This document shows, one piece after another, positions 3,464 through 16,969 of a stretch of DNA of 64,000 nucleotides. How positions within the stretch are numbered: position 1 is the first letter of the stretch; every line of letters starts with the position of its first letter. Under the pieces are notes generated by a model, which was not told the DNA's origin, did no database searches, and saw only the letters and a program-made list of their open reading frames with translations. Source of the stretch: an uncultured Phascolarctobacterium sp. (GTDB taxonomy: Bacteria > Bacillota > Negativicutes > Acidaminococcales > Acidaminococcaceae). The translations under genes were made by a program, and so were the position numbers. The stretch covers positions 1 through 64,000 of the forward strand of contig CASDXO010000011.1 in the NCBI GenBank assembly GCA_949285135.1, read 5' to 3'.

Positions 3464-3889
3464 ATGAATGCTGAAGAAATTATTAGAAATATGTGGCAGG
3501 GCAATGCTTTTATGAATGTGCTGAAAATCCGGATTAAAGAAGTACACTGCGGCGGAGCTACTTTGGAGATGCCGATTGATATTGACATCCATACCAATCA
3601 CTGGCTGGGTGTACATGGTGGCGCTATGGCGGCTTTAGCTGATTCTCTGACGGGGATTACCTGCGCGTCGGTGGGTAAGATGGCGCAGACGCTGAATATG
3701 AATATCAGCTATATAGGAAACGTTAAGGGGATGGGGAGTCTGATTGCTACAAGCAGAATTATTCATAAAGGTAAATCTACCATCAATATTGCTTCGGAAA
3801 TTAGGGATGAAAGTGGTAATCTGATATGTAATATTACCAATATTATGTTTGTTGCAGGGGAATTTGAACAAATTCCTGCTAACTGGTGA
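3464..3889 (+). CDS. PaaI/YbgC-type hotdog-fold thioesterase
   Basis: A 141-residue single hotdog domain with the HGGAMAALADSLTG signature around residues 51-64, in which the HGG segment and the Asp on the long helix form the PaaI-type active site. These enzymes hydrolyse acyl-CoA thioesters. The ATG follows AAAGGAG and lies 15 bp after the AEC gene, so the two are probably cotranscribed. It may remove dead-end acyl-CoAs formed during malonate metabolism, but that is inference. Confidence 0.82.
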   Translation: MNAEEIIRNMWQGNAFMNVLKIRIKEVHCGGATLEMPIDIDIHTNHWLGVHGGAMAALADSLTGITCASVGKMAQTLNMNISYIGNVKGMGSLIATSRIIHKGKSTINIASEIRDESGNLICNITNIMFVAGEFEQIPANW

Positions 3890-3907
3890 TTATAAGCGCA
3901 TAAAAAC

Positions 3908-3942
3908 AAAACCGCCTTATGGCGGTTTTATTTTTATTTTTG
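3908..3942. terminator. Bidirectional Rho-independent terminator
   Basis: A 9-bp stem (AAAACCGCC / GGCGGTTTT) with loop TTAT, a T-rich tail on the plus strand and an A-rich flank that becomes a T-tract on the minus strand. It separates the convergent thioesterase and ttcA genes. Confidence 0.85.
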
Positions 3943-4752
3943 TTTCTTTTTCCAAAACGCTCTAAATTTATTAGCCAGTTCTTTCTGACTCAGCTTCTGC
4001 GGCCACAGCTCCTGCGTTTCGCTGCAGCGCATGGCGGCTGCGAGATGTTCATAAATTTCCGGATAACGCTGGTCAAGGGCTGCAATATGCTCTTTGACGT
4101 CTTGTCTGGTAGTATGGCCGTCGTAGGGGCAGGGGTTTTTTAAAGGCTGCAGCGCGAGCTTATCTACCAGCTGGCGGATTTCGTTTTCCCTGTAATATAA
4201 AAGAGGACGCAGCACAGTAAGTCCGGTGCGGCTGAGCGGAGTAACCGGCAGGAAGGTACGCAGCTGGCCGGAGGTGCAGAGGTTCATAAAGAAGGTTTCC
4301 ACTGCATCATCGTGATGATGCGCCAGTGCTATCTTGTTAAAGCCAAGTTCCAGCGCGCGGCGGTTGGTAGCCGCTCTGCGAAAATATGCGCAGGTAAAGC
4401 AGGGACTGCTGCCCTTATGCTGCCAGGCTTCCATAACATTGACGTCGTCGCTGTAGTGTTCCAAGCCGTAACTACGGCAAAAGTCTTCCAGCTGCTGACG
4501 AGGAAAATCTGGGGCAAACATGGCGTTGACCGTATAACAGGCCAGCTCAAAAGGGATAGGAGAATATTTTTTAATTTCTGCCAGTGCGGCTGTGAGAAAC
4601 ATACTGTCCTTGCCGCCGCTGAGACCGATAAGGATTCTGTCGCCCGGCTGCAGCATATCAAATTCAATGATGGCGCGCCACAGCTTGCTGAGGTCATCAG
4701 CAGGAACAAAAGGGCGGCGGGAAATGTCTGTAGATACGGTATTTGCTGTCAT
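3934..4752 (-). CDS. ttcA: TtcA-family tRNA 2-thiocytidine synthetase (PP-loop ATPase)
   Basis: A 272-residue protein with the PP-loop SGGKDS near residues 45-50, a CFTC cysteine pair near 117-120, HHHDD near 145-149 and NPCP near 207-210. The three cysteines are the ligands that hold a 4Fe-4S cluster in TtcA enzymes, which thiolate cytidine 32 of tRNA. TilS enzymes lack these cysteines, which favours TtcA. ATG 4752 follows GAGGT. The gene stands alone on the minus strand, diverging from pcrA. The exact modified base in this organism is inferred from the family. Confidence 0.82.
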   Translation of the reverse strand: MTANTVSTDISRRPFVPADDLSKLWRAIIEFDMLQPGDRILIGLSGGKDSMFLTAALAEIKKYSPIPFELACYTVNAMFAPDFPRQQLEDFCRSYGLEHYSDDVNVMEAWQHKGSSPCFTCAYFRRAATNRRALELGFNKIALAHHHDDAVETFFMNLCTSGQLRTFLPVTPLSRTGLTVLRPLLYYRENEIRQLVDKLALQPLKNPCPYDGHTTRQDVKEHIAALDQRYPEIYEHLAAAMRCSETQELWPQKLSQKELANKFRAFWKKKQK

Positions 4753-4911: not shown

Positions 4912-7116
4912 ATGAGTGATACATTACAGGGATTAAATACACAGCAGGCACTGGCAGTCCAGACTACGGACGGACCCATGCTGATTCTGGCAGGAGCCGG
5001 CAGCGGTAAGACCAAGGTGCTTACCTGCCGTATTGCGCATCTTCTGCAGCAGGGAGTTGCGCCCTACAGAATTTTGGCGATAACCTTTACCAATAAGGCA
5101 GCAGCCGAAATGCGTGAGCGTGTTGACCGTATGGCAGGCGCGGCGGCGAAGGATGTCTGGTTGTTTACTTTCCATGCTTTCTGTGCAAGATTGCTGCGCC
5201 GTGATATAGACAAGCTGGAAGGATATGGCAATAATTTCGCTATTTATGATACTTCTGACGCGCAAAACGTGGTCAAACAGGTGCTTAAAGAAATGAATCT
5301 GGATGAAAAACGTTTCCAGCCCGCCGGCATCTGCGCGCGTATCAGCAGTGCCAAAAATCAGCTGCTGTCGCCGCTGGACTATGCTAAAGCGGCCAACGAT
5401 TTTTATGATGAAAAGGCGGCGCAGATTTATGCGCGTTATCAGGAAAAACTGCAGCAGAATAATGCCCTTGATTTTGACGATCTGCTGCTGGTTACTGTAC
5501 GTTTGCTGCAGGAAAATGCAGAAGTACGGGAAAAATATCAGGATAAATTTCAGTATATCATGGTGGACGAGTATCAAGATACTAACCATGTGCAGTATCT
5601 GCTGACCAGGCTGCTGGCAGGCAAGCATCGTAATATCTGTGTGGTGGGCGATGCCGACCAGAGTATTTATGGCTGGCGCGGTGCTGACATTCAGAATATC
5701 CTGGATTTTGAAAAGGATTATCCTGACGCTAAATTGATTAAGCTGGAACAAAATTACCGTAGTACCCAGGTAATTTTAGATGCGGCTAATGCTGTTATTG
5801 AGAATAATACCGGGCGAAAGCCGAAAAATTTGTGGACTGATAATGGAACAGGACGTGAGATAACCTATTTTCAGGCCATGGACGAGCGTGACGAAGCACG
5901 TTTCGTTATTGAACAGCTGCAGCGTCTGCAGCGTGAAGAAGATATGCGTCTGGGCGATATGGCAGTTTTATACCGTACCAATACTCAGTCTCGTGTGTTC
6001 GAGGAAATGCTGATTAAGAGCGGCATCAGCTACAATATGGTAGGCGGCACAAAGTTCTATGAGCGTAAGGAAATCAAGGATATTCTGGCTTATCTGCGGG
6101 TTATTTTCAATCCCAATGATTCTTTGAGCCTGCTGCGTATTATCAATGTACCGCGACGCGGTATCGGCGATGCTACTTTGGGCAGACTGCAGTCGTATGC
6201 GGCGGAGAATAATCTGCATCTTTTTGAAGTTTTATCCAACGCTGCCGCCGTTCCGGGCCTCAACAGCCGTTTTGTCGGCAAGCTGGATGAACTGTCAGGT
6301 GTTATCTTTGAACTGATGGGTGAAGCAGAGGAAGTACCGGTAAAACAGCTTATTGAAGACGTTATGCAGAAGACCGGTTATCTGGAAGAGCTGCAGCTGA
6401 GTAAAAACATACAGGACCAGAGCCGTGTTGATAATCTGATGGAATTATTGTCCGTGGCGGAAGATTTTGCCAGGGGCGGAGAAGAAAATACTCTGGAAAA
6501 CTTCCTGGCTAATGTGGCGCTGGTTTCCGATATCGACGATGCTGAGCTGGGCGAGGATGCAGTAACCTTGATGACGCTGCATTCTGCCAAAGGGTTGGAG
6601 TTCCCTGCAGTATTCCTTGCCGGTATGGAAGAAGGAATCTTCCCGCATGCGCGTACGCTGATGGATGAAGACGAGATAGAGGAAGAACGCCGCCTGTGCT
6701 ATGTTGGCATTACCAGAGCTGAAAAATATCTGTTTATGAGTAATGCCAGGATGCGTACTATTTACGGGCATACGGTATCTTATCCGCCGTCCCGCTTTTT
6801 GCAGGAAGTGCCGCGCAATCTGCTGCACATCTATAAACGTCCGGTGTTGCAGCGCCAGACACCACGTGAGGAAAGACGCAGCGAAAGTCGCAGTACTTCA
6901 AACTGGTTCCTGCAGCCTAAAAGCAGCTTTATCCCTCAGGCAAACAGCAGCGGCAGCAGTTTTGCTGCGGGCGATAAAGTATCGCACAGCAAGTGGGGAA
7001 CCGGTACTGTGGTAAGTGTTAAAAATACTGATGACGGACAGGAAGTTAAGGTTGCTTTTGCCGGGGCCGGCATACGCAGCCTGCTGACGAAATATGCCGT
7101 ACTGAAAAAACTGTAG
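4912..7116 (+). CDS. pcrA: UvrD/PcrA-type DNA helicase
   Basis: A 734-residue superfamily 1 helicase with all canonical motifs in order: GAGSGKT (28-34), TFTNKAAAEMRERV, DEYQDT, GDADQSIYGWRGAD, LEQNYRS, YRTNTQSR, TLHSAKGLEF and VGITRAEKYL. The C-terminal FAAGDKVSHSKWGTG segment matches the PcrA tail that contacts RNA polymerase. It acts in nucleotide excision repair, removal of recombination intermediates and resolution of replication-transcription conflicts. Length is usual for PcrA. ATG follows GGAGG. ligA starts 18 bp downstream, the standard Firmicute pcrA-ligA operon. Confidence 0.96.
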   Translation: MSDTLQGLNTQQALAVQTTDGPMLILAGAGSGKTKVLTCRIAHLLQQGVAPYRILAITFTNKAAAEMRERVDRMAGAAAKDVWLFTFHAFCARLLRRDIDKLEGYGNNFAIYDTSDAQNVVKQVLKEMNLDEKRFQPAGICARISSAKNQLLSPLDYAKAANDFYDEKAAQIYARYQEKLQQNNALDFDDLLLVTVRLLQENAEVREKYQDKFQYIMVDEYQDTNHVQYLLTRLLAGKHRNICVVGDADQSIYGWRGADIQNILDFEKDYPDAKLIKLEQNYRSTQVILDAANAVIENNTGRKPKNLWTDNGTGREITYFQAMDERDEARFVIEQLQRLQREEDMRLGDMAVLYRTNTQSRVFEEMLIKSGISYNMVGGTKFYERKEIKDILAYLRVIFNPNDSLSLLRIINVPRRGIGDATLGRLQSYAAENNLHLFEVLSNAAAVPGLNSRFVGKLDELSGVIFELMGEAEEVPVKQLIEDVMQKTGYLEELQLSKNIQDQSRVDNLMELLSVAEDFARGGEENTLENFLANVALVSDIDDAELGEDAVTLMTLHSAKGLEFPAVFLAGMEEGIFPHARTLMDEDEIEEERRLCYVGITRAEKYLFMSNARMRTIYGHTVSYPPSRFLQEVPRNLLHIYKRPVLQRQTPREERRSESRSTSNWFLQPKSSFIPQANSSGSSFAAGDKVSHSKWGTGTVVSVKNTDDGQEVKVAFAGAGIRSLLTKYAVLKKL

Positions 7117-9892: not shown

Positions 9893-10912
9893 TCAATCAA
9901 TCTCGATCAGCTCATATTTGTCGTTGCCCATTTTCAGTTCGCGCATGGCAGTCAGCTGGTGCAGACCATGACGGCTTTCAATACGTTCCACCAGGTCCTG
10001 GTTATGCACCTGGGCGTAAACCATGTCGATGCAGGCCTGGTCAACCGCCAGAATATCCGTAGAAGCGGCGATGCCGATATCGGGGATGGTTGGCTCTGCT
10101 GCAGCCGTACCGGCGCAGTCACAGTCTACGGACATACGGCGCATAACATTGATATAAACTATATGTTTGCCAAAAAAGTCGATAGTAGCTTTGGCTGATT
10201 CCGCCATGTTTTCCATGAGTAACTCTTTGGCAGGCCATACGTTCCAGTCTGCCGGAATATTATCCTTATCCACACCGTGCACCTGCGCCTTGCCGATGCG
10301 TCCATCGGCGCAGCCGATAGCAATGTTTTTCATAGAGCCGCCAAAACCGCCCATGGCGTGACCCTTAAAGTGAGTAAGTACAACCATGGAGTCGTAGTTG
10401 ACGATGTTTTTGCCCATGGATACTTCTTTAAAATGCTTGCCGCCGCGTACAGGCAGCATAACGGTGCCGTCTTCGTCCATAATATCTACCGGGCAGAAAG
10501 TCCAGCCGTTAACCTGCAAGGTTTCACGGTGGGCTTTGGTTGTATAACGGTCGCCCTGATATAAGGTGTTAGTTTCTACAATGGCGCTGTTAGGTATTTG
10601 CTGCTGTAAAGCCCGTACCATCTCGCGCGGCAGGATATTAGGCCCGTGTTTTTCCCCCGTATGCAGTTTGATGGCTACCTTGCCGTAAATAGCTTCGTTA
10701 ATTAAACTGTACAGCTTGAGCAGATGCTCCGCATCAATATGCCTGGTAAAATAAACCTTGGCGTGAGAGCTGCTGCCTGCCGAAGCTTTGGTAATTTTGG
10801 TGCTGCCGATGACTGGGGCTTGCGCAAATAGTTTATCCATGCTTATCATTCCTCCTGTGGCCAGTAAAGATGCAGCCACTCCTGTTGATTTAAGAAAGTC
10901 GCGTCTTTTCAT
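9893..10912 (-). CDS. DUF362 protein with Tat signal
   Basis: A 339-residue protein with an N-terminal twin-arginine signal (KRRDFLK, then an Ala/Gly-rich hydrophobic stretch to about residue 30) and a DUF362 domain (AIKLHTGEKHGPN, LTHFKGHAMGGFGGSMKN). Many DUF362 proteins carry a ferredoxin domain. None is present here, although scattered conserved Cys/His residues could bind metal. ATG 10912 follows AAGGTG; the GTG nine bases earlier is inside that site. It is the last gene of the minus-strand Tat operon, so it is a likely Tat substrate. Its biochemical role is unknown. Confidence 0.82.
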   Translation of the reverse strand: MKRRDFLKSTGVAASLLATGGMISMDKLFAQAPVIGSTKITKASAGSSSHAKVYFTRHIDAEHLLKLYSLINEAIYGKVAIKLHTGEKHGPNILPREMVRALQQQIPNSAIVETNTLYQGDRYTTKAHRETLQVNGWTFCPVDIMDEDGTVMLPVRGGKHFKEVSMGKNIVNYDSMVVLTHFKGHAMGGFGGSMKNIAIGCADGRIGKAQVHGVDKDNIPADWNVWPAKELLMENMAESAKATIDFFGKHIVYINVMRRMSVDCDCAGTAAAEPTIPDIGIAASTDILAVDQACIDMVYAQVHNQDLVERIESRHGLHQLTAMRELKMGNDKYELIEID

Positions 10913-10949: not shown

Positions 10950-11582
10950 TTACAAAGAAAGTTTATGAAGCCAAGTGTCTATCTCGCTTTGAGCAGTTCT
11001 TGCCCTGTTGCCGGACAGACACAGGTATTCAGTAACATTGGCACCTGCTGCCAGTCTGCGCAGGTCGCGGTCGCAGTTTTGTACGCCACCGCCGCCGTGG
11101 GTGAAGAAAGGCGCTACTGTTTTACCATGCCAGCTGCAGCCGTCCATAAAGGTGGCCACAGGCATGGGCAGACTGCCCCACCAGTTGGGATAACCGATAA
11201 AGATAATGTCATATTTGCTGATGTCTGTGAGCCTGTTCCTGATAGCCGGACGGGCATTGCTTTGCTGTTCCTGCTTGGCCTTGTCAACGGTAGCAGAATA
11301 ATTTTGTGAATAGGGTGTCTCAGGTACGATTTCATATATATCGCCGCCGGTACGGGCATGGATGGCTTCGGCTACGGCTTTAGTATTGCCGCTCCAGGAA
11401 AAATAAGCGATGAGAATTTTTTTGTTGTCAGTATTCATAGTTGGCTGAGCTCCTTGATCTGTATTGGTATTTGTCGTAACTGCAGTAGCTGCAGCAGACT
11501 GCTGACTGCTGCAGCCTAAGCAGACAGCGGCCAGTCCCATAAGGGAAAAAGCAGAAGATTTAAGAAAACTGCGTCTGTTCAT
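10950..11582 (-). CDS. Tat-exported flavodoxin lipoprotein
   Basis: A 210-residue protein with a twin-arginine motif (NRRSFLK), a lipobox ending LGC near residue 22, a Thr/Gln/Asn-rich linker and a flavodoxin domain. The domain shows ILIAYFSWSGNT (FMN phosphate loop) and IGYPNWWGSLPMP. It should therefore be a lipid-anchored FMN protein facing the periplasm. ATG 11582 follows AAGGAGG and lies inside the 3' end of tatC (23-bp overlap), implying coupled expression with its own transporter. It is a good candidate for an extracytoplasmic electron carrier. Partners are inferred from neighbours. Confidence 0.86.
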   Translation of the reverse strand: MNRRSFLKSSAFSLMGLAAVCLGCSSQQSAAATAVTTNTNTDQGAQPTMNTDNKKILIAYFSWSGNTKAVAEAIHARTGGDIYEIVPETPYSQNYSATVDKAKQEQQSNARPAIRNRLTDISKYDIIFIGYPNWWGSLPMPVATFMDGCSWHGKTVAPFFTHGGGGVQNCDRDLRRLAAGANVTEYLCLSGNRARTAQSEIDTWLHKLSL

Positions 11583-12315
11583 GGTCTCTTCCTCCTTTAT
11601 TAAAGCATTTGAGAAAAATAATACTGATTTCGTATAAAACGGCCATTGGTATGGCAAGCAGGCACTGGGTGATAATATCAGGGGTAGGGGTGATGACGGC
11701 GGCCAGGATAAAGGCTGCAAAGATAACATGCTTTCTGTATTTTGCGAGTGTGGCTGTGCGTACGATACCGCAGCATCCCAGCAGCAGTATTGCTATTGGA
11801 ATATTGAAGATAAAGGCAAAGGGAGCTGTCAGCATCAGCATAAAGCCAAGATAGCTTTCCAGAGAAAGCAAAGGGGTGAGCCTATCTCCGGCAAAACTCA
11901 GAAAGAAAGCAAGGCCGCGCGGAAAAACAAAGAGATAGGCAAAGACCATGCCGCCGATACCCAAAAGCAGCATAACGGGCAGAGCCAGTAACAGGAAGCG
12001 ACGCTCTTTATCAGTCAAGGCAGGACTGATAAAGCTGTAAATTTGCCGGAGGATAAACGGCAGTGCCAGTATCAGTCCGCAAAAAATAGTGAGCTTCATG
12101 TAGATAACAAAGGCTTCGGCCGGCTTCATGTAATACAGGTTGCCAGCGGCGGATGTCAGCAGACAGACGATGTCCTGAATAAAGCACAAACTGACAGCAC
12201 TGCCTGCCAGCAAGGCGGCAAGACTTTTTAAAATACGGCTGCGCAGTTCCTGCAAATGGGCAGTAAGCGGCATATCCTTGTCAGGCGGTCCCTGGATAAG
12301 TTTAGCAAGCAGCAT
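11560..12315 (-). CDS. tatC: Twin-arginine translocase subunit TatC
   Basis: A 251-residue protein with six membrane segments and the TatC hallmarks: [14 protein letters not shown] at the cytosolic N-terminus, a [19 protein letters not shown] loop ([14 protein letters not shown]) and the TPTPDIITQ segment before the last helices. TatC is the receptor for twin-arginine signals. The start is set at ATG 12315, which overlaps the tatA end by 14 bp; the longer frame would lie mostly inside tatA. It sits between tatA and three Tat-signal genes in one operon. Confidence 0.93.
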
Positions 12316-12505
12316 CCTGGTTGCCGGAACCTTGCGCTTTGTTTTCTGCTGCAGGCTGCTTAGGATCGGCAGCGTTGACCGCCTGTTTAAATTCATGCAT
12401 GCTGCGTCCTAAAGCCTTGCCGACATCGGGCAGTTTGCCGGGTCCGAAAAAGATTAAGCCTATAACGAGGATGAGCAGAAGTTCAGGTAAACCGAGTCCA
12501 AACAT
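12302..12505 (-). CDS. tatA: Twin-arginine translocase subunit TatA
   Basis: A 67-residue protein with the TatA plan: one N-terminal membrane helix ([20 protein letters not shown]), the [14 protein letters not shown] hinge and a short amphipathic helix with a polar tail. It forms the protein-conducting assembly with TatC. ATG follows AAGGAGG. No separate TatB is present, as in the minimal TatA-TatC systems of Firmicutes. Confidence 0.94.
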
Positions 12506-12537: not shown

Positions 12538-12753
12538 TTAGTGCTGTTTGCTGCGGTAAGCGCAGAAACTTAAAAAGAGCAGGGGAATGATAAGGCTGAT
12601 ACAGGAACCGCCGCAGTTGCCGCAGCTGCCTGTGCAGCCTGAAGCGGGAAGTTTATCGGATAAAACAGGGGCAGAGCTGATGCGAGACAGTATTTGGGGC
12701 AGCAAAACAGCTCCTGTAGCGCCGCAGCTGTACAGCAGTTTCTGTTTCTTCAT
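12538..12753 (-). CDS. Small Cys-rich membrane protein
   Basis: A 71-residue protein. The first 35 residues are mildly hydrophobic, followed by a compact GCTGSCGNCGGSC motif (residues 39-51, four cysteines), a hydrophobic helix SLIIPLLFLSFCAY and a basic tail. ATG follows AAGGAGC only 3 bp after the NapH-like gene, so it belongs to that operon. The cysteines could bind an Fe-S cluster or other metal, or serve as a thiol relay. I do not recognise a named family; small Gly-Cys-rich membrane peptides occur next to several redox and metal loci. Confidence 0.7.
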   Translation of the reverse strand: MKKQKLLYSCGATGAVLLPQILSRISSAPVLSDKLPASGCTGSCGNCGGSCISLIIPLLFLSFCAYRSKQH

Positions 12754-12756
12754 AAT

Positions 12757-13590
12757 TTACAGCTCCTTGGTGATATTGCTTTTGTAGCGGATTGCTTGCA
12801 CAGGACATTGTGCCTGGCAGCAGCCGCAGACGATACAGCGGTTTGTGTCGATGACGGCCTTTCCCTGCTTCAGACTGATTGTGCGCATGGGGCAGCTGCG
12901 TGCGCATTTGCCGCAGCCGATGCAGGCAGGTTTATTTACTGTCATTTTAAATGGACTGGGCAGCAGCTGACCGATACGGTGCAAAAGAGAGCTGGCAGTT
13001 CCTACGGGACAGAGAAAATTGCAGTAACCGCGCCCACCTTTGGTAAACAGACCGAAGACGATATTGGCAATAAAGAAGACCGCCAGCAGTGAAAATGAGG
13101 TAAGAAGCAGTTGACTACTGTAGATGCTGATGATGAAAAGTTCAAAGGCATAGTAATTACAGTAGGCGCAGAAAGAAGCAAAGCCTGAGAAGGCTGACAG
13201 TAAAAAGCCGGCAAAAAAACCGTAGCGCAGTGTTGTTATGGGCACATATTTCTGCCAGTCTATCTGATATTTTTCCGGCAGCAGGCTGCCTAAAAATTCA
13301 CTGAAAGCTCCGGCGGGGCAAAGCCTGCCGCAAAAAAACGGGCCGAACCAGAGAGAAACAAGTGCCAGCAGCAAACAGAAGCAAAGGGAAACAGGGCCGG
13401 CATATGCCCAGTCGCCGGTCAAGATGTTAGCCAGCGGGATACGCACGCAAGGCACATGAAGGGAATAAAAACCTGTTTCCTCAAATAAGGTGCCTGTCAG
13501 ATTGTGAAACAGCATGAAGGGTTCGTAAAACAGTAGGAAACCTGTCAAATAGCCGATCAGACGTTGAATAATAAATTTACTTCGCGGCAT
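12757..13590 (-). CDS. NapH/RdxA-like membrane Fe-S protein
   Basis: A 277-residue protein with about four to five membrane helices, two CxxxCP motifs in loops (CGRLCPAG near residue 88 and CNFLCPVG near 189), and a C-terminal cytosolic pair of 4Fe-4S motifs (CIGCGKCARSCP and CIVCGCCQAQCP). This is the architecture of NapH/CcoG-like proteins that pass electrons between the quinone pool or soluble donors and periplasmic partners. ATG follows GAGAGGTG. In this operon it could supply electrons to the exported flavoproteins. The donor and acceptor are not shown by sequence. Confidence 0.86.
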   Translation of the reverse strand: MPRSKFIIQRLIGYLTGFLLFYEPFMLFHNLTGTLFEETGFYSLHVPCVRIPLANILTGDWAYAGPVSLCFCLLLALVSLWFGPFFCGRLCPAGAFSEFLGSLLPEKYQIDWQKYVPITTLRYGFFAGFLLSAFSGFASFCAYCNYYAFELFIISIYSSQLLLTSFSLLAVFFIANIVFGLFTKGGRGYCNFLCPVGTASSLLHRIGQLLPSPFKMTVNKPACIGCGKCARSCPMRTISLKQGKAVIDTNRCIVCGCCQAQCPVQAIRYKSNITKEL

Positions 13591-13651: not shown

Positions 13652-14182
13652 TTATAAGCTGCGCCCCAGCGAATAAGCTGCCTCAGGGTAAATTGTTTTC
13701 AAAAGGGCTTCTCTTGTAGGACAGCCTGCGGCAAGAACTGTGCCTCTGTCCCGCCAGCGCATATAACCGGACAAAGTCGTATAGAATTTTTTCAGCGACC
13801 TCATGGTGAGCTCGTTATCGCTGCCTGCCGCGGCCAGCAGTACCGACTGTTTGCCGCTGATGCGGCCTGTACGGGAGTAAAATCTGTCGATAACCGTTTT
13901 AAGCTGGGCGGAAACATGGAAATAATAAACCGGAGAAACAAGGGCAATCAGGTCTGCCGCCGTAAGACGCACGATGAGCGTATTTTCAATATCATCCTTA
14001 TGTACGCAGGGGCCGTTCATACCGCAGGCATCACAGCCGCTGCAGGGAGTGATTTTCTGAAAAGCGGCGTCGAAACGGAAAACGCTGTGGCCGGCTGACT
14101 GCGCTCCGGCAATGAATCTTTCTGCCAGTACGGAGGTGGTGCCGTCGCGGTGAGGACTTCCGGTCAGTACTACGATGTTCAT
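13652..14182 (-). CDS. Cytosolic iron-sulfur flavoprotein (NADPH-dependent FMN reductase fold)
   Basis: A 176-residue flavodoxin-like protein with the FMN loop GSPHRDGTT, a compact cysteine cluster PCSGCDACGMNGPC (C-x2-C-x2-C-x5-C, residues 47-58) and the SPVYYFHVSAQLKTVIDR segment. The spacing matches the 4Fe-4S motif known from Isf flavoproteins, which reduce O2, peroxide or quinones with ferredoxin-derived electrons. There is no signal peptide. ATG follows AAAGGAGG. It is a paralogue of the exported protein 15 bp upstream. The cluster assignment is inferred from spacing. Confidence 0.85.
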   Translation of the reverse strand: MNIVVLTGSPHRDGTTSVLAERFIAGAQSAGHSVFRFDAAFQKITPCSGCDACGMNGPCVHKDDIENTLIVRLTAADLIALVSPVYYFHVSAQLKTVIDRFYSRTGRISGKQSVLLAAAGSDNELTMRSLKKFYTTLSGYMRWRDRGTVLAAGCPTREALLKTIYPEAAYSLGRSL

Positions 14183-14196
14183 GGTTGTTGCCTCCT

Positions 14197-14871
14197 TTAA
14201 AGACTCTGACCCAGCTGCAGGGCGTGCTGCGGGAACTGGGTGCGCTCTATGGCGCTGCGGCTGCCGCAGCCATAACCTAATATCATTCCCAGATCATGCC
14301 AGTGCATATATTCCACAAGGGACTGATAGTGGTCGGTAAGCGCGTCAAAAGTCCAGTCTGCACTGTTATAGGCTGTAGCCAGCAGCAGAGATTTTTTGTT
14401 ATCCATACCGCGCTGGCGGGAGTACATCCTGTCAACTACGGTTTTCAGCTGTGCTGACATACCGTAATAATAAAGGGGTGTGACTAATGCTATAATATCC
14501 GCCTGCAGCAGCTGTGGCATCAGCAATTTGTCGATATCGTCATTTTGCACGCAGGCGCCGTTACGACTGCAGGCGTTGCAGGCCTGACAGGGATGGATGT
14601 CGGCAAAGGCAGCGTTGAAGCGGAATACTGTATGTCCTTTGGACTGAGCGCCCTGAATCAGGTTGTCTGCCAGCAGGGCAGAAGTTCCGTTGCGATGCGG
14701 ACTGCCGGTTATAACGACGATTTTCAGCTGCTGACCGGCAGCTGAGGGCGCTGCTTCACTCACAGGTGCCGCAGCAGGAGTGCTTTTGCTCAGCAGGTTC
14801 ATGCCGATACCGCTGGCAAACAGCGTACCGAAACCGGCGACAGAAACTTTGATGAAATCACGTCTGTTCAT
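14197..14871 (-). CDS. Tat-exported iron-sulfur flavoprotein
   Basis: A 224-residue protein made of a twin-arginine signal (NRRDFIK, then a Gly/Ser-rich hydrophobic region to about residue 30), an Ala/Pro linker and an Isf-type domain. The domain has GSPHRNGTS, PCQACNACSRNGAC (C-x2-C-x2-C-x5-C) and TPLYYYGMSAQLKTVVDR. The body closely parallels the cytosolic paralogue downstream. Tat export fits a protein that must fold around FMN and probably 4Fe-4S before transport. ATG follows AAGGAGG. An exported Isf is unusual, and its electron donor and substrate are unknown. Confidence 0.85.
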   Translation of the reverse strand: MNRRDFIKVSVAGFGTLFASGIGMNLLSKSTPAAAPVSEAAPSAAGQQLKIVVITGSPHRNGTSALLADNLIQGAQSKGHTVFRFNAAFADIHPCQACNACSRNGACVQNDDIDKLLMPQLLQADIIALVTPLYYYGMSAQLKTVVDRMYSRQRGMDNKKSLLLATAYNSADWTFDALTDHYQSLVEYMHWHDLGMILGYGCGSRSAIERTQFPQHALQLGQSL

Positions 14872-14897: not shown

Positions 14898-15917
14898 CTA
14901 TTTGTTGGTATGTGTATCTTCATGCAGCATGGAACGTGAAGCCTCATAGACGCGCCGCCAGAATTCTCTGCTGGACTGAGCTTCCGGTACGGCGCTTTCA
15001 AAAGCGTGGTAAAGTCCGGGTTCCACATAGAGAGTGACATCGTTGCCTGCTTCAATCAGCTTATTGGCGTAATCAATATCTTCGTTGACGAATAAATCAA
15101 GTCCGCCTACGTAAATCAGCGCAGGAGGCAGGTTGTCCAGATCTTCAGCCATGGAGGGCGAGAAATAAGGCAGCATATCGCTGCTGATATGTTGGCCGCC
15201 GCGCAGTTTTTCCCAGGCAAAAACATTGGTTGGCCTGTTCCAGCAGATGTGGCCGTCACAGGGACTGTTATAGGGTGACTGCTCCGTGCCCGTGCGATAG
15301 TCCAGCATGGGATAAATCAGTACCTGTCCGCACAGGGGGATAGCGTCATGGCTGCGGTTGTACAGAGCAAGGCTTGCCGCCAGTCCGCCGCCGGCACTGT
15401 CTCCCATCAGCATGATTTTGCTGCCGTCAAGCTTGAGCTGCTCCGCATTTTGTCTGATATATTTAAGGCCGGTGTAAGCATCCTCCAAAGCGGCGGGGAA
15501 GGGGGCTTCTGTAGAAAGACGGTAGCAGGGAGTGATGACTGCTGCTCCTGTTTTATCAGCCAGCTGCTGATAGCGTTCAGTATTGTCAAGCGCTTTACGG
15601 AACAGAAAGCCGCCGCCGTGGGTGTAATAGATAACCGGCACAGCGCCTGGCGCAGTCTGCTGTGGTCTGTAGATATACAGGTTTATTGCAGGGGCGGTTT
15701 CCGTTGCCGGTACAACGGCCGTTTCTCTGCCGGTTGCCGTTGATTGCTGCATGGCCGTAGCCGCAGCCAGATCTGCATCGGAGGTATAATTGAACATAAA
15801 GGTTTCTGCGGCCTGTCTGTAGGGTTGCTGCACTTTATCCAGACAGGGAATTTCCGCTGCTGCCGCTATTCCTGTAAGAGTGCAAAACAGCACAAACGAG
15901 GTGAGTAATTTTTTCAT
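14898..15917 (-). CDS. Secreted alpha/beta hydrolase (HSL-type esterase)
   Basis: A 339-residue protein with a Sec signal peptide (MKKLLTSFVLFCTLTGIAAA) and a hormone-sensitive-lipase type alpha/beta hydrolase domain: oxyanion motif HGGGF near residue 110, nucleophile elbow GDSAGG near 172-177 and the catalytic His in YHAFE near 305. It hydrolyses short-chain esters outside the cytoplasm; the natural ester is unknown. It is the first gene after the LysR terminator and leads the operon of redox and Tat genes, 26 bp from the exported flavoprotein. Ribosome site AGGT is modest. Confidence 0.85.
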   Translation of the reverse strand: MKKLLTSFVLFCTLTGIAAAAEIPCLDKVQQPYRQAAETFMFNYTSDADLAAATAMQQSTATGRETAVVPATETAPAINLYIYRPQQTAPGAVPVIYYTHGGGFLFRKALDNTERYQQLADKTGAAVITPCYRLSTEAPFPAALEDAYTGLKYIRQNAEQLKLDGSKIMLMGDSAGGGLAASLALYNRSHDAIPLCGQVLIYPMLDYRTGTEQSPYNSPCDGHICWNRPTNVFAWEKLRGGQHISSDMLPYFSPSMAEDLDNLPPALIYVGGLDLFVNEDIDYANKLIEAGNDVTLYVEPGLYHAFESAVPEAQSSREFWRRVYEASRSMLHEDTHTNK

Positions 15918-16078: not shown

Positions 16079-16969
16079 CTATTTTAAAGCATCTTTTATG
16101 CTTAAAAAGCATCTGGAGAACTCAATGAATTTCTGTACGGTGATGCTGGTAGTGGCACTGCTGCGCCAGGCAAGAAACACCTTAGTGTTAATCGGCGGCT
16201 GTAGCGGCTTGAAACAGAAAAGTTTATCATCAGGAAGAGAAGTTTTGACTGTGATAGCGTAACAATTCATATGTTCCACCAAAGGAAAGATATTACCCTG
16301 CAGGTTGCAGGTACCAATGAGTTTGATTTTGGAAATATTACCGCTGAGCCAGTTGAGAATAAGACTGTGCAGCTGCAGCCGTGTGGGCAGCAGTAACGGC
16401 CTGTTTTCCAAATCGGCGGCGGAGACAGATTCTTTGCCTGCCAGCTCGGCATCTGTGCGCATCAATATGCCCATTTCTTCCTGCTGCGGCAGAGTAAGGA
16501 AACTGTAATTGAGCATATCAATAGGCTCCTGCAGCAAAGCTATATCAATCAGACCTTTCTCTGTTTTCTGATGAATAATGTCAGTGGTGCCTGTAAACAG
16601 TTCAAATGTTACATTGGGGTACTTCTGCTGAAAAGCGTGAATTATATCTGCCAGCAGATTGACGGAAGCAATTTCACCGGCACCGAAGCAGATGTTACCG
16701 CTCAGATTGGTTTCCTGATCTTTGATGTCATGTTCAGTTTTTTCGACTAAATCAACAATATCTGCTGCACGTTGTGCCAGAAAGCTGCCTGCCGGAGTCA
16801 GAGTAAACTTGCGCTGGCTGCGGTCAAACAGTTTGACGCCTAAATCTTCTTCCAGCTGCATCAGCTGGCGGCTGAGAGTAGGCTGGGTAATATGCAGCAT
16901 GTCGGCTGCTTTGGTGATGCTGCGTTCACGGACAACGGTAAGAAAATAAATCAGGATACGAAAATTCAC
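16079..16969 (-). CDS. LysR-family transcriptional regulator
   Basis: A 296-residue regulator with an N-terminal winged helix-turn-helix (residues 1-60, ITKAADMLHITQPTLSRQLMQLEEDLG) and a LysR substrate-binding domain. It starts with GTG at 16969 after AGGAGGAC. It lies downstream of a flavin reductase-like gene and upstream of the Tat/flavoprotein operon on the same strand, so it is the natural candidate regulator of that operon. The inducer is unknown. Confidence 0.92.
   Translation of the reverse strand: MNFRILIYFLTVVRERSITKAADMLHITQPTLSRQLMQLEEDLGVKLFDRSQRKFTLTPAGSFLAQRAADIVDLVEKTEHDIKDQETNLSGNICFGAGEIASVNLLADIIHAFQQKYPNVTFELFTGTTDIIHQKTEKGLIDIALLQEPIDMLNYSFLTLPQQEEMGILMRTDAELAGKESVSAADLENRPLLLPTRLQLHSLILNWLSGNISKIKLIGTCNLQGNIFPLVEHMNCYAITVKTSLPDDKLFCFKPLQPPINTKVFLAWRSSATTSITVQKFIEFSRCFLSIKDALK

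Follow-up and report, generated by a model that had tools for sequence, protein, structure and literature searches.

The window, the whole 64,000-nucleotide stretch analyzed here from an uncultured Phascolarctobacterium sp., carries a gene (Tat-Isf) whose product appears to be an Isf-like FMN/Fe-S reductase that would leave the cytosol already folded via the Tat pathway, next to a signal-less gene that would supply a cytosolic version of the same enzyme. As a whole, we think the arrangement is likely to reflect a Tat-exported Isf-like reductase whose ancestral two-start gene was split by tandem duplication. In most relatives, a single gene would give rise to two products: a long one from the first start, which would be a Tat lipoprotein at the periplasmic face, and a short cytosolic one from an internal Shine-Dalgarno (SD) sequence and ATG located exactly at the start of the domain. 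In the lineage of the window, tandem duplication would have divided the two products between two genes. The signal-bearing copy would then have lost its internal start (ATG to CTG, with no SD sequence) and, in the window and in genome G017, probably its lipid anchor as well. The sequences themselves contain the signal, the Cys motif, the predicted fold, the operon, and internal start signals that are conserved and are lost with duplication; we infer that the internal start is in use in the relatives.

The Tat-Isf gene and its operon

Tat-Isf begins with an ATG preceded by an AAGGAGG site. Its N-terminus, MNRRDFIKVSVAGFGTLFASGIGMNLLSKSTPAAA, includes the Tat motif MNRRDFIK, a hydrophobic stretch, and an AxA region, followed by a linker. 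A preliminary description had assigned a Tat signal and a compact Cys motif to this ORF, and both were borne out; it had omitted that the gene is on the minus strand and had left out the Tat translocase genes, the NapH-like protein, and two further Tat substrates of the operon, all of which are listed here.

16079 to 16969, minus strand: LysR-type regulator, heading the gene run
14898 to 15917, minus strand: alpha/beta hydrolase (Abhydrolase_3; esterase) with a probable Sec signal; missing, like the Isf pair, from the sister species G001
14197 to 14871, minus strand: Tat-Isf ORF, 224 amino acids; Tat signal (about codons 1 to 47) and Isf-like FMN reductase domain with CX2CX2CX5C
14731 to 14871, minus strand: Tat signal and linker of Tat-Isf; the lipobox Cys of relatives (LSGC) is replaced, giving ASGI
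13652 to 14182, minus strand: signal-less Isf paralog, 14 nt downstream of Tat-Isf, with its own AGGAGG site and no room for a signal
12757 to 13590, minus strand: NapH-like membrane polyferredoxin with Fer4_5 and two Fer4 domains and without an FMN-binding domain
12538 to 12753, minus strand: small Cys-rich membrane ORF (CTGSCGNCGGSC), conserved in G001 and G017
12302 to 12505, minus strand: TatA
11560 to 12396, minus strand: TatC; start codon uncertain, ORF overlapping tatA
10950 to 11582, minus strand: Tat-exported flavodoxin (Flavodoxin_4) with lipobox CLGC
9893 to 10912, minus strand: Tat-exported DUF362 protein

The Isf-like nature of the mature domain also held up. Its four cysteines (C95-x2-C98-x2-C101-x5-C107) form the compact CX2CX2CX4-7C motif of Isf proteins and are invariant among 54 aligned relatives, and the domain matches Pfam FMN_red (61 bits) and Flavodoxin_2 above the cut-off. 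An AlphaFold2 model (pLDDT 88 overall and 91 to 98 across the mature domain) has the flavodoxin-like fold of FMN reductases. The closest solved folds are quinone, azo, and flavone reductases: quinone/FMN reductases match with Z about 20, among them NAD(P)H:quinone oxidoreductase (4r81, Z 19.9), and the model also matches azoreductases, SsuE, and the flavone reductase 7d38 (Z 17.9). No Methanosarcina Isf entry was among the structure matches listed for the model, and the Cys motif is presumably absent from most of the top ones. Tat-Isf is predicted to bind FMN and a 4Fe-4S cluster, the Isf cofactors being assigned solely by motif. Reduction by ferredoxin, and the O2 or peroxide reduction that the preliminary description gave for Isf proteins, would be putative activities here.

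The Tat pathway transports folded, cofactor-loaded proteins; the known Isf proteins are, to our knowledge, cytosolic. Export of Tat-Isf, as the preliminary description had proposed, is nonetheless very likely, because the signal is conserved, TatC co-occurs with and adjoins the gene, and partner proteins are exported. Besides the RR motif and hydrophobic region of the protein, the genome has two tatC genes, one of them in the operon. Tat-type signals are carried by 115 distinct homologs, which is beyond chance, and a lipobox (LSGC or similar) follows in 110 of these. The usual form of the family would be a Tat lipoprotein, and the lipobox appears to have been lost from the window copy, where ASGI stands after the hydrophobic stretch (VSGL in G017). 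Within the Acidaminococcaceae, TatC occurs in 38 of 59 genomes overall and in 19/19 genomes with Tat-Isf versus 19/40 without it (Fisher P = 3e-5, uncorrected for relatedness). A tatC gene lies <4 kb from Tat-Isf in 13 of the 19, and in each of the four genomes with two tatC genes (G000, G024, G044, and G046), one of them adjoins Tat-Isf. The genome of the window has a second tatA/tatC pair (locus L140, 7325 to 8277, plus strand, contig C12 of G000), with no Isf gene within the 16 kb around it. Using a simple rule to call signals in partner proteins, we found CMD with a Sec-type signal in 34/43 cases and amidohydrolase with a Tat signal in 16/18 cases near Tat-Isf loci, compared with 2/6 and 0/5 near signal-less Isf relatives. 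The N-terminus could instead be a membrane anchor that is never translocated, as the lost lipobox of the window copy and its putative cleavage site would allow; given the conserved RR motif, the lipobox in 110/115 relatives, and tatA and tatC in the operon, we regard this as highly improbable.

The NapH-like gene adjoins Tat-Isf in G017, G044, and G046 as well. The operon recurs in G001 minus the esterase and both Isf genes, and the proteins in common are 65 to 99% identical; because the Isf pair is missing there, the operon core looks like NapH plus Tat flavodoxin, with the Isf pair as an added module. The same core and Isf pair are found in G017 along with CMD, cyclophilin-like, and cupin genes. 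Tat, Isf, and NapH are also linked in G044 and G046, but differently: the order is TatA-TatC-Tat-Isf-NapH, and the NapH is only 29% identical to that of the window. The small ORF between the NapH-like gene and tatA (12538 to 12753) combines a conserved CTGxCGxCGGSC motif with a membrane stretch and is possibly a redox or metal-binding partner. In the Tat flavodoxin (10950 to 11582, minus strand), an in-frame Met at the signal/mature junction follows AAGGAG by about 11 nt, an arrangement kept in G001 and G017 that is a weak internal-start signal on account of its long spacing.

We tentatively view Tat-Isf as a periplasmic reductase fed by NapH, a reading that we hold with less than even confidence. 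The NapH-like protein would carry electrons over the membrane and hand them to the exported flavoproteins; Tat-Isf, supplied either by it or by the Tat flavodoxin, would reduce a periplasmic small molecule, perhaps a quinone or a plant-derived compound. Neither ApbE (PF02424) nor an FMN-binding domain (FMN_bind, PF04205), which together would mark a NapH-like flavinylated electron-transfer system, was found in the window's genome. Across the Acidaminococcaceae, ApbE occurs in 5/19 genomes with Tat-Isf versus 20/40 without it, a negative relation too weak for us to claim.

Internal start signals at the signal/mature junction

To characterize start sites, we used 115 distinct Tat-tagged genes, 102 without a tandem signal-less copy and 13 with one (window included). 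An in-frame ATG is present at the signal/mature junction in 107 of them, and, in the alignment, the Met that it encodes coincides with the first residue of signal-less homologs. Upstream of this ATG, 72/115 genes have GGAGG or AGGAGG, at a spacing of 7 nt (63 genes), 8 nt (8 genes), or 10 nt (1 gene). The junction ATG occurs in 100/102 genes without a tandem copy, and 85/102 have both an SD core and the ATG; the other 17 lack the SD core, some of them having GGGGG. Where there is a tandem copy, the ATG remains in 7/13 genes (six have lost it) and the SD core in none (0/13). The window copy belongs to this last group, with neither an in-frame internal start nor an SD sequence at the junction: codon 49 is CTG in place of the relatives' ATG (GCC GGT CAG CAG CTG AAA). 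SD-like sites are found for the signal-less copies as well.

Predicted pairing with the anti-SD sequence followed the same pattern. In genes without a tandem copy, mean energy was -9.8 at the junction versus -6.8 at the annotated start, against controls of -6.7 for a synonymous null drawn from the codon use of the gene in question and -1.4 at ATGs elsewhere inside the genes; in genes with a tandem copy, the junction mean was -4.0. When genes were clustered at 80% identity, SD core plus ATG was found in 22/26 clusters without a tandem copy versus 0/5 with one (Fisher P = 7e-4).

Part of the SD signal is accounted for by amino-acid choice, since the Gly-Gly linker yields a cluster-weighted GGAGG fraction of 0.13, not 0, in synonymous shuffles (maximum 0.35), compared with 0.54 in the real genes. 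Codon use at the site departs from that elsewhere: the first Gly codon is GGA in 14/19 cluster representatives versus 98/547 at other positions (P = 3e-7), and the wobble base at -10, inside the site, is only A or G, though the commonest Gly codon is GGC. In eight genes GGAGG stands in another codon register, mostly through a change from TCG GGA GGN to TCG GAG GGN that turns Gly into Glu, which points to selection on the RNA and not on the protein. We rejected the idea that internal starts are general to Tat-type proteins here, because GGAGG-ATG lies at the junction in 1/65 other Tat-type ORFs of these loci versus 70/110 Isf genes.

Gastranaerophilales relatives have GGAG-type sites too. One contig labeled Gastranaerophilales (L083) encodes two Tat-Isf genes in opposite orientation (3733 to 4371, plus strand, and 6134 to 6775, minus strand), possibly reflecting cross-phylum transfer or a binning error.

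Direction of the duplication and competing readings

Matches to the Tat-Isf family (E below 1e-50) were found in 139/380 Negativicutes genomes, where the Tat-tagged form is the general one and mostly single copy. Among the 19 Acidaminococcaceae genomes with the gene, about 14 have Tat-Isf and the signal-less copy in tight tandem order. In a close relative of Tat-Isf at locus L216 of G247 (around 5093 to 5626, minus strand), there is no recognizable signal at the usual place and the SGGKNM junction is kept; the exported form has possibly been lost there.

The preliminary description suggested that a cytosolic gene had been duplicated and that one copy, nearly identical to its neighbor, was then relocated to the periplasm. 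Tandem copies are indeed present, but the signal-less neighbor is just 51% identical to Tat-Isf over 176 amino acids, and the copy at 59.2 kb is a distant member of the family (47% identity over 99 amino acids only). The proposed order of events is not supported either: a phylogeny of the copies places the tandem duplication, and the signal-less copies that it produced, within the Tat-tagged clade. The Tat-tagged and signal-less copies of g13 form one clade (support 99/94) with a single-copy neighbor, G018, that has GGAGG-ATG, and a second, older duplication spans G140, g1, g17, and g2. A single clade of all signal-less copies was disfavored (AU P = 0.03, for a group named after the tree was seen). 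Tandem signal-less copies thus apparently arose at least twice independently. Genus g52 includes both states: AGGAG-ATG is retained in G139, which is single copy, and the SD core is missing from G140, which has the tandem. The independent contrasts for loss of the internal start number two, too few for a sign test to reach significance. G002 has one gene only, in which a signal-less-type body follows a Tat signal; its junction ATG comes with a weak AGGA.

On the tree and the start-signal pattern, the window would represent the split state. We consider two-start ancestry followed by a split through duplication quite probable, in which case the duplication divided two preexisting locations and created no new one. 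On balance, though with slightly less confidence, we favor the broader proposal of a conserved two-start gene whose products are a Tat lipoprotein form and a cytosolic form of one Fe-S flavoenzyme, present in much of the Negativicutes and perhaps the Gastranaerophilales, in which at least two tandem duplications replaced the two starts, with the window as an end state.

It is possible that the internal ATG and SD site are a relic of an old cytosolic gene fused to a Tat signal, or a pause site in the coding region, and yield no important short form. The alignment of the internal Met with the start of signal-less homologs makes descent from a real start likely, and Gly-Gly linkers favor GGAGG by chance (null of 0.13). 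Yet GGAGG-7-ATG persists over several Negativicutes families in an otherwise very variable linker, its wobble base is constrained, register shifts are seen, and genes with tandem copies (0/13) show that the site is readily lost once unneeded; we consider this explanation rather unlikely. More doubtful still is a heterodimer of the two copies in which the signal-less one is carried out of the cytosol by its Tat partner. PaoABC and HybOC provide precedents for such hitchhiker export (PMC4273604), which would suit both the tight tandem order in about 14/19 genomes and the Tat signal on a signal-less-type body in G002. Against this reading, tandem lineages have lost the internal start, which suggests that the signal-less gene has taken the place of the cytosolic form, and we regard it as improbable. 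New acquisition of a Tat signal by one of two cytosolic copies, as first proposed, would account for adjacent genes with and without a signal. The tree had already disfavored it, given that the tandem copies without a signal fall within the Tat-tagged clade, and it is at odds with the widespread, mostly single-copy Tat-tagged forms and with the signal on the signal-less-type copy of G002; it now seems very improbable.

Significance and comparison with known systems

Open-licence papers, as far as their titles and abstracts showed, described no Tat-exported Isf; nor did we find there any case of duplication replacing a double start in this family, or a related gene set of CMD, flavodoxin, cyclophilin-like, and Tat genes. 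If the two-start reading is true, the family would offer a clean bacterial case of one-gene dual localization that was repeatedly resolved by duplication, and gene calls with one start each would miss the cytosolic product in about a hundred such genes. Most discussion of extracytosolic flavin chemistry in bacteria concerns flavins attached by ApbE. The operon suggests another route, in which a neighboring Tat translocase exports folded flavoproteins in a genome without ApbE.

Tat-Isf resembles the archaeal and bacterial Isf proteins of the Methanosarcina thermophila type in its flavodoxin-like FMN-reductase domain and compact CX2CX2CX5C motif, and it differs in having a Tat signal and, in most relatives, being a lipoprotein. 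It also resembles the flavone reductase FLR/Cd1 described from gut bacteria (PMC7862272; PDB 7d38) in sequence (phmmer E = 6e-7) and structure (Z 17.9, rmsd 2.0 over 154 residues). However, FLR/Cd1 has 310 residues and a wider Cys spacing, and the matched chain begins at the domain, with no signal. NapH-like proteins are thought to transfer electrons across the membrane in extracytosolic electron-transfer systems (PMC8238504), and the window likewise places a NapH-like membrane polyferredoxin beside exported flavoproteins. Unlike the flavinylated NapH-like systems, its genome has no FMN_bind and no ApbE, and flavin would be exported within Tat-folded proteins, not attached on the outside.

N-terminal proteoforms differing in their signal sequence have been described for Salmonella genes (PMC11005335). 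The T6SS immunity lipoprotein Tli is unrelated to Tat-Isf and has a lipoprotein signal, and the passages of its report considered here mention neither Tat nor a duplication that splits the forms (PMC10294624). Nevertheless, as described there, alternative starts downstream of the signal give Tli a cytosolic form, so that, as proposed for two-start Tat-Isf, one gene would provide both a lipoprotein and a cytosolic protein.
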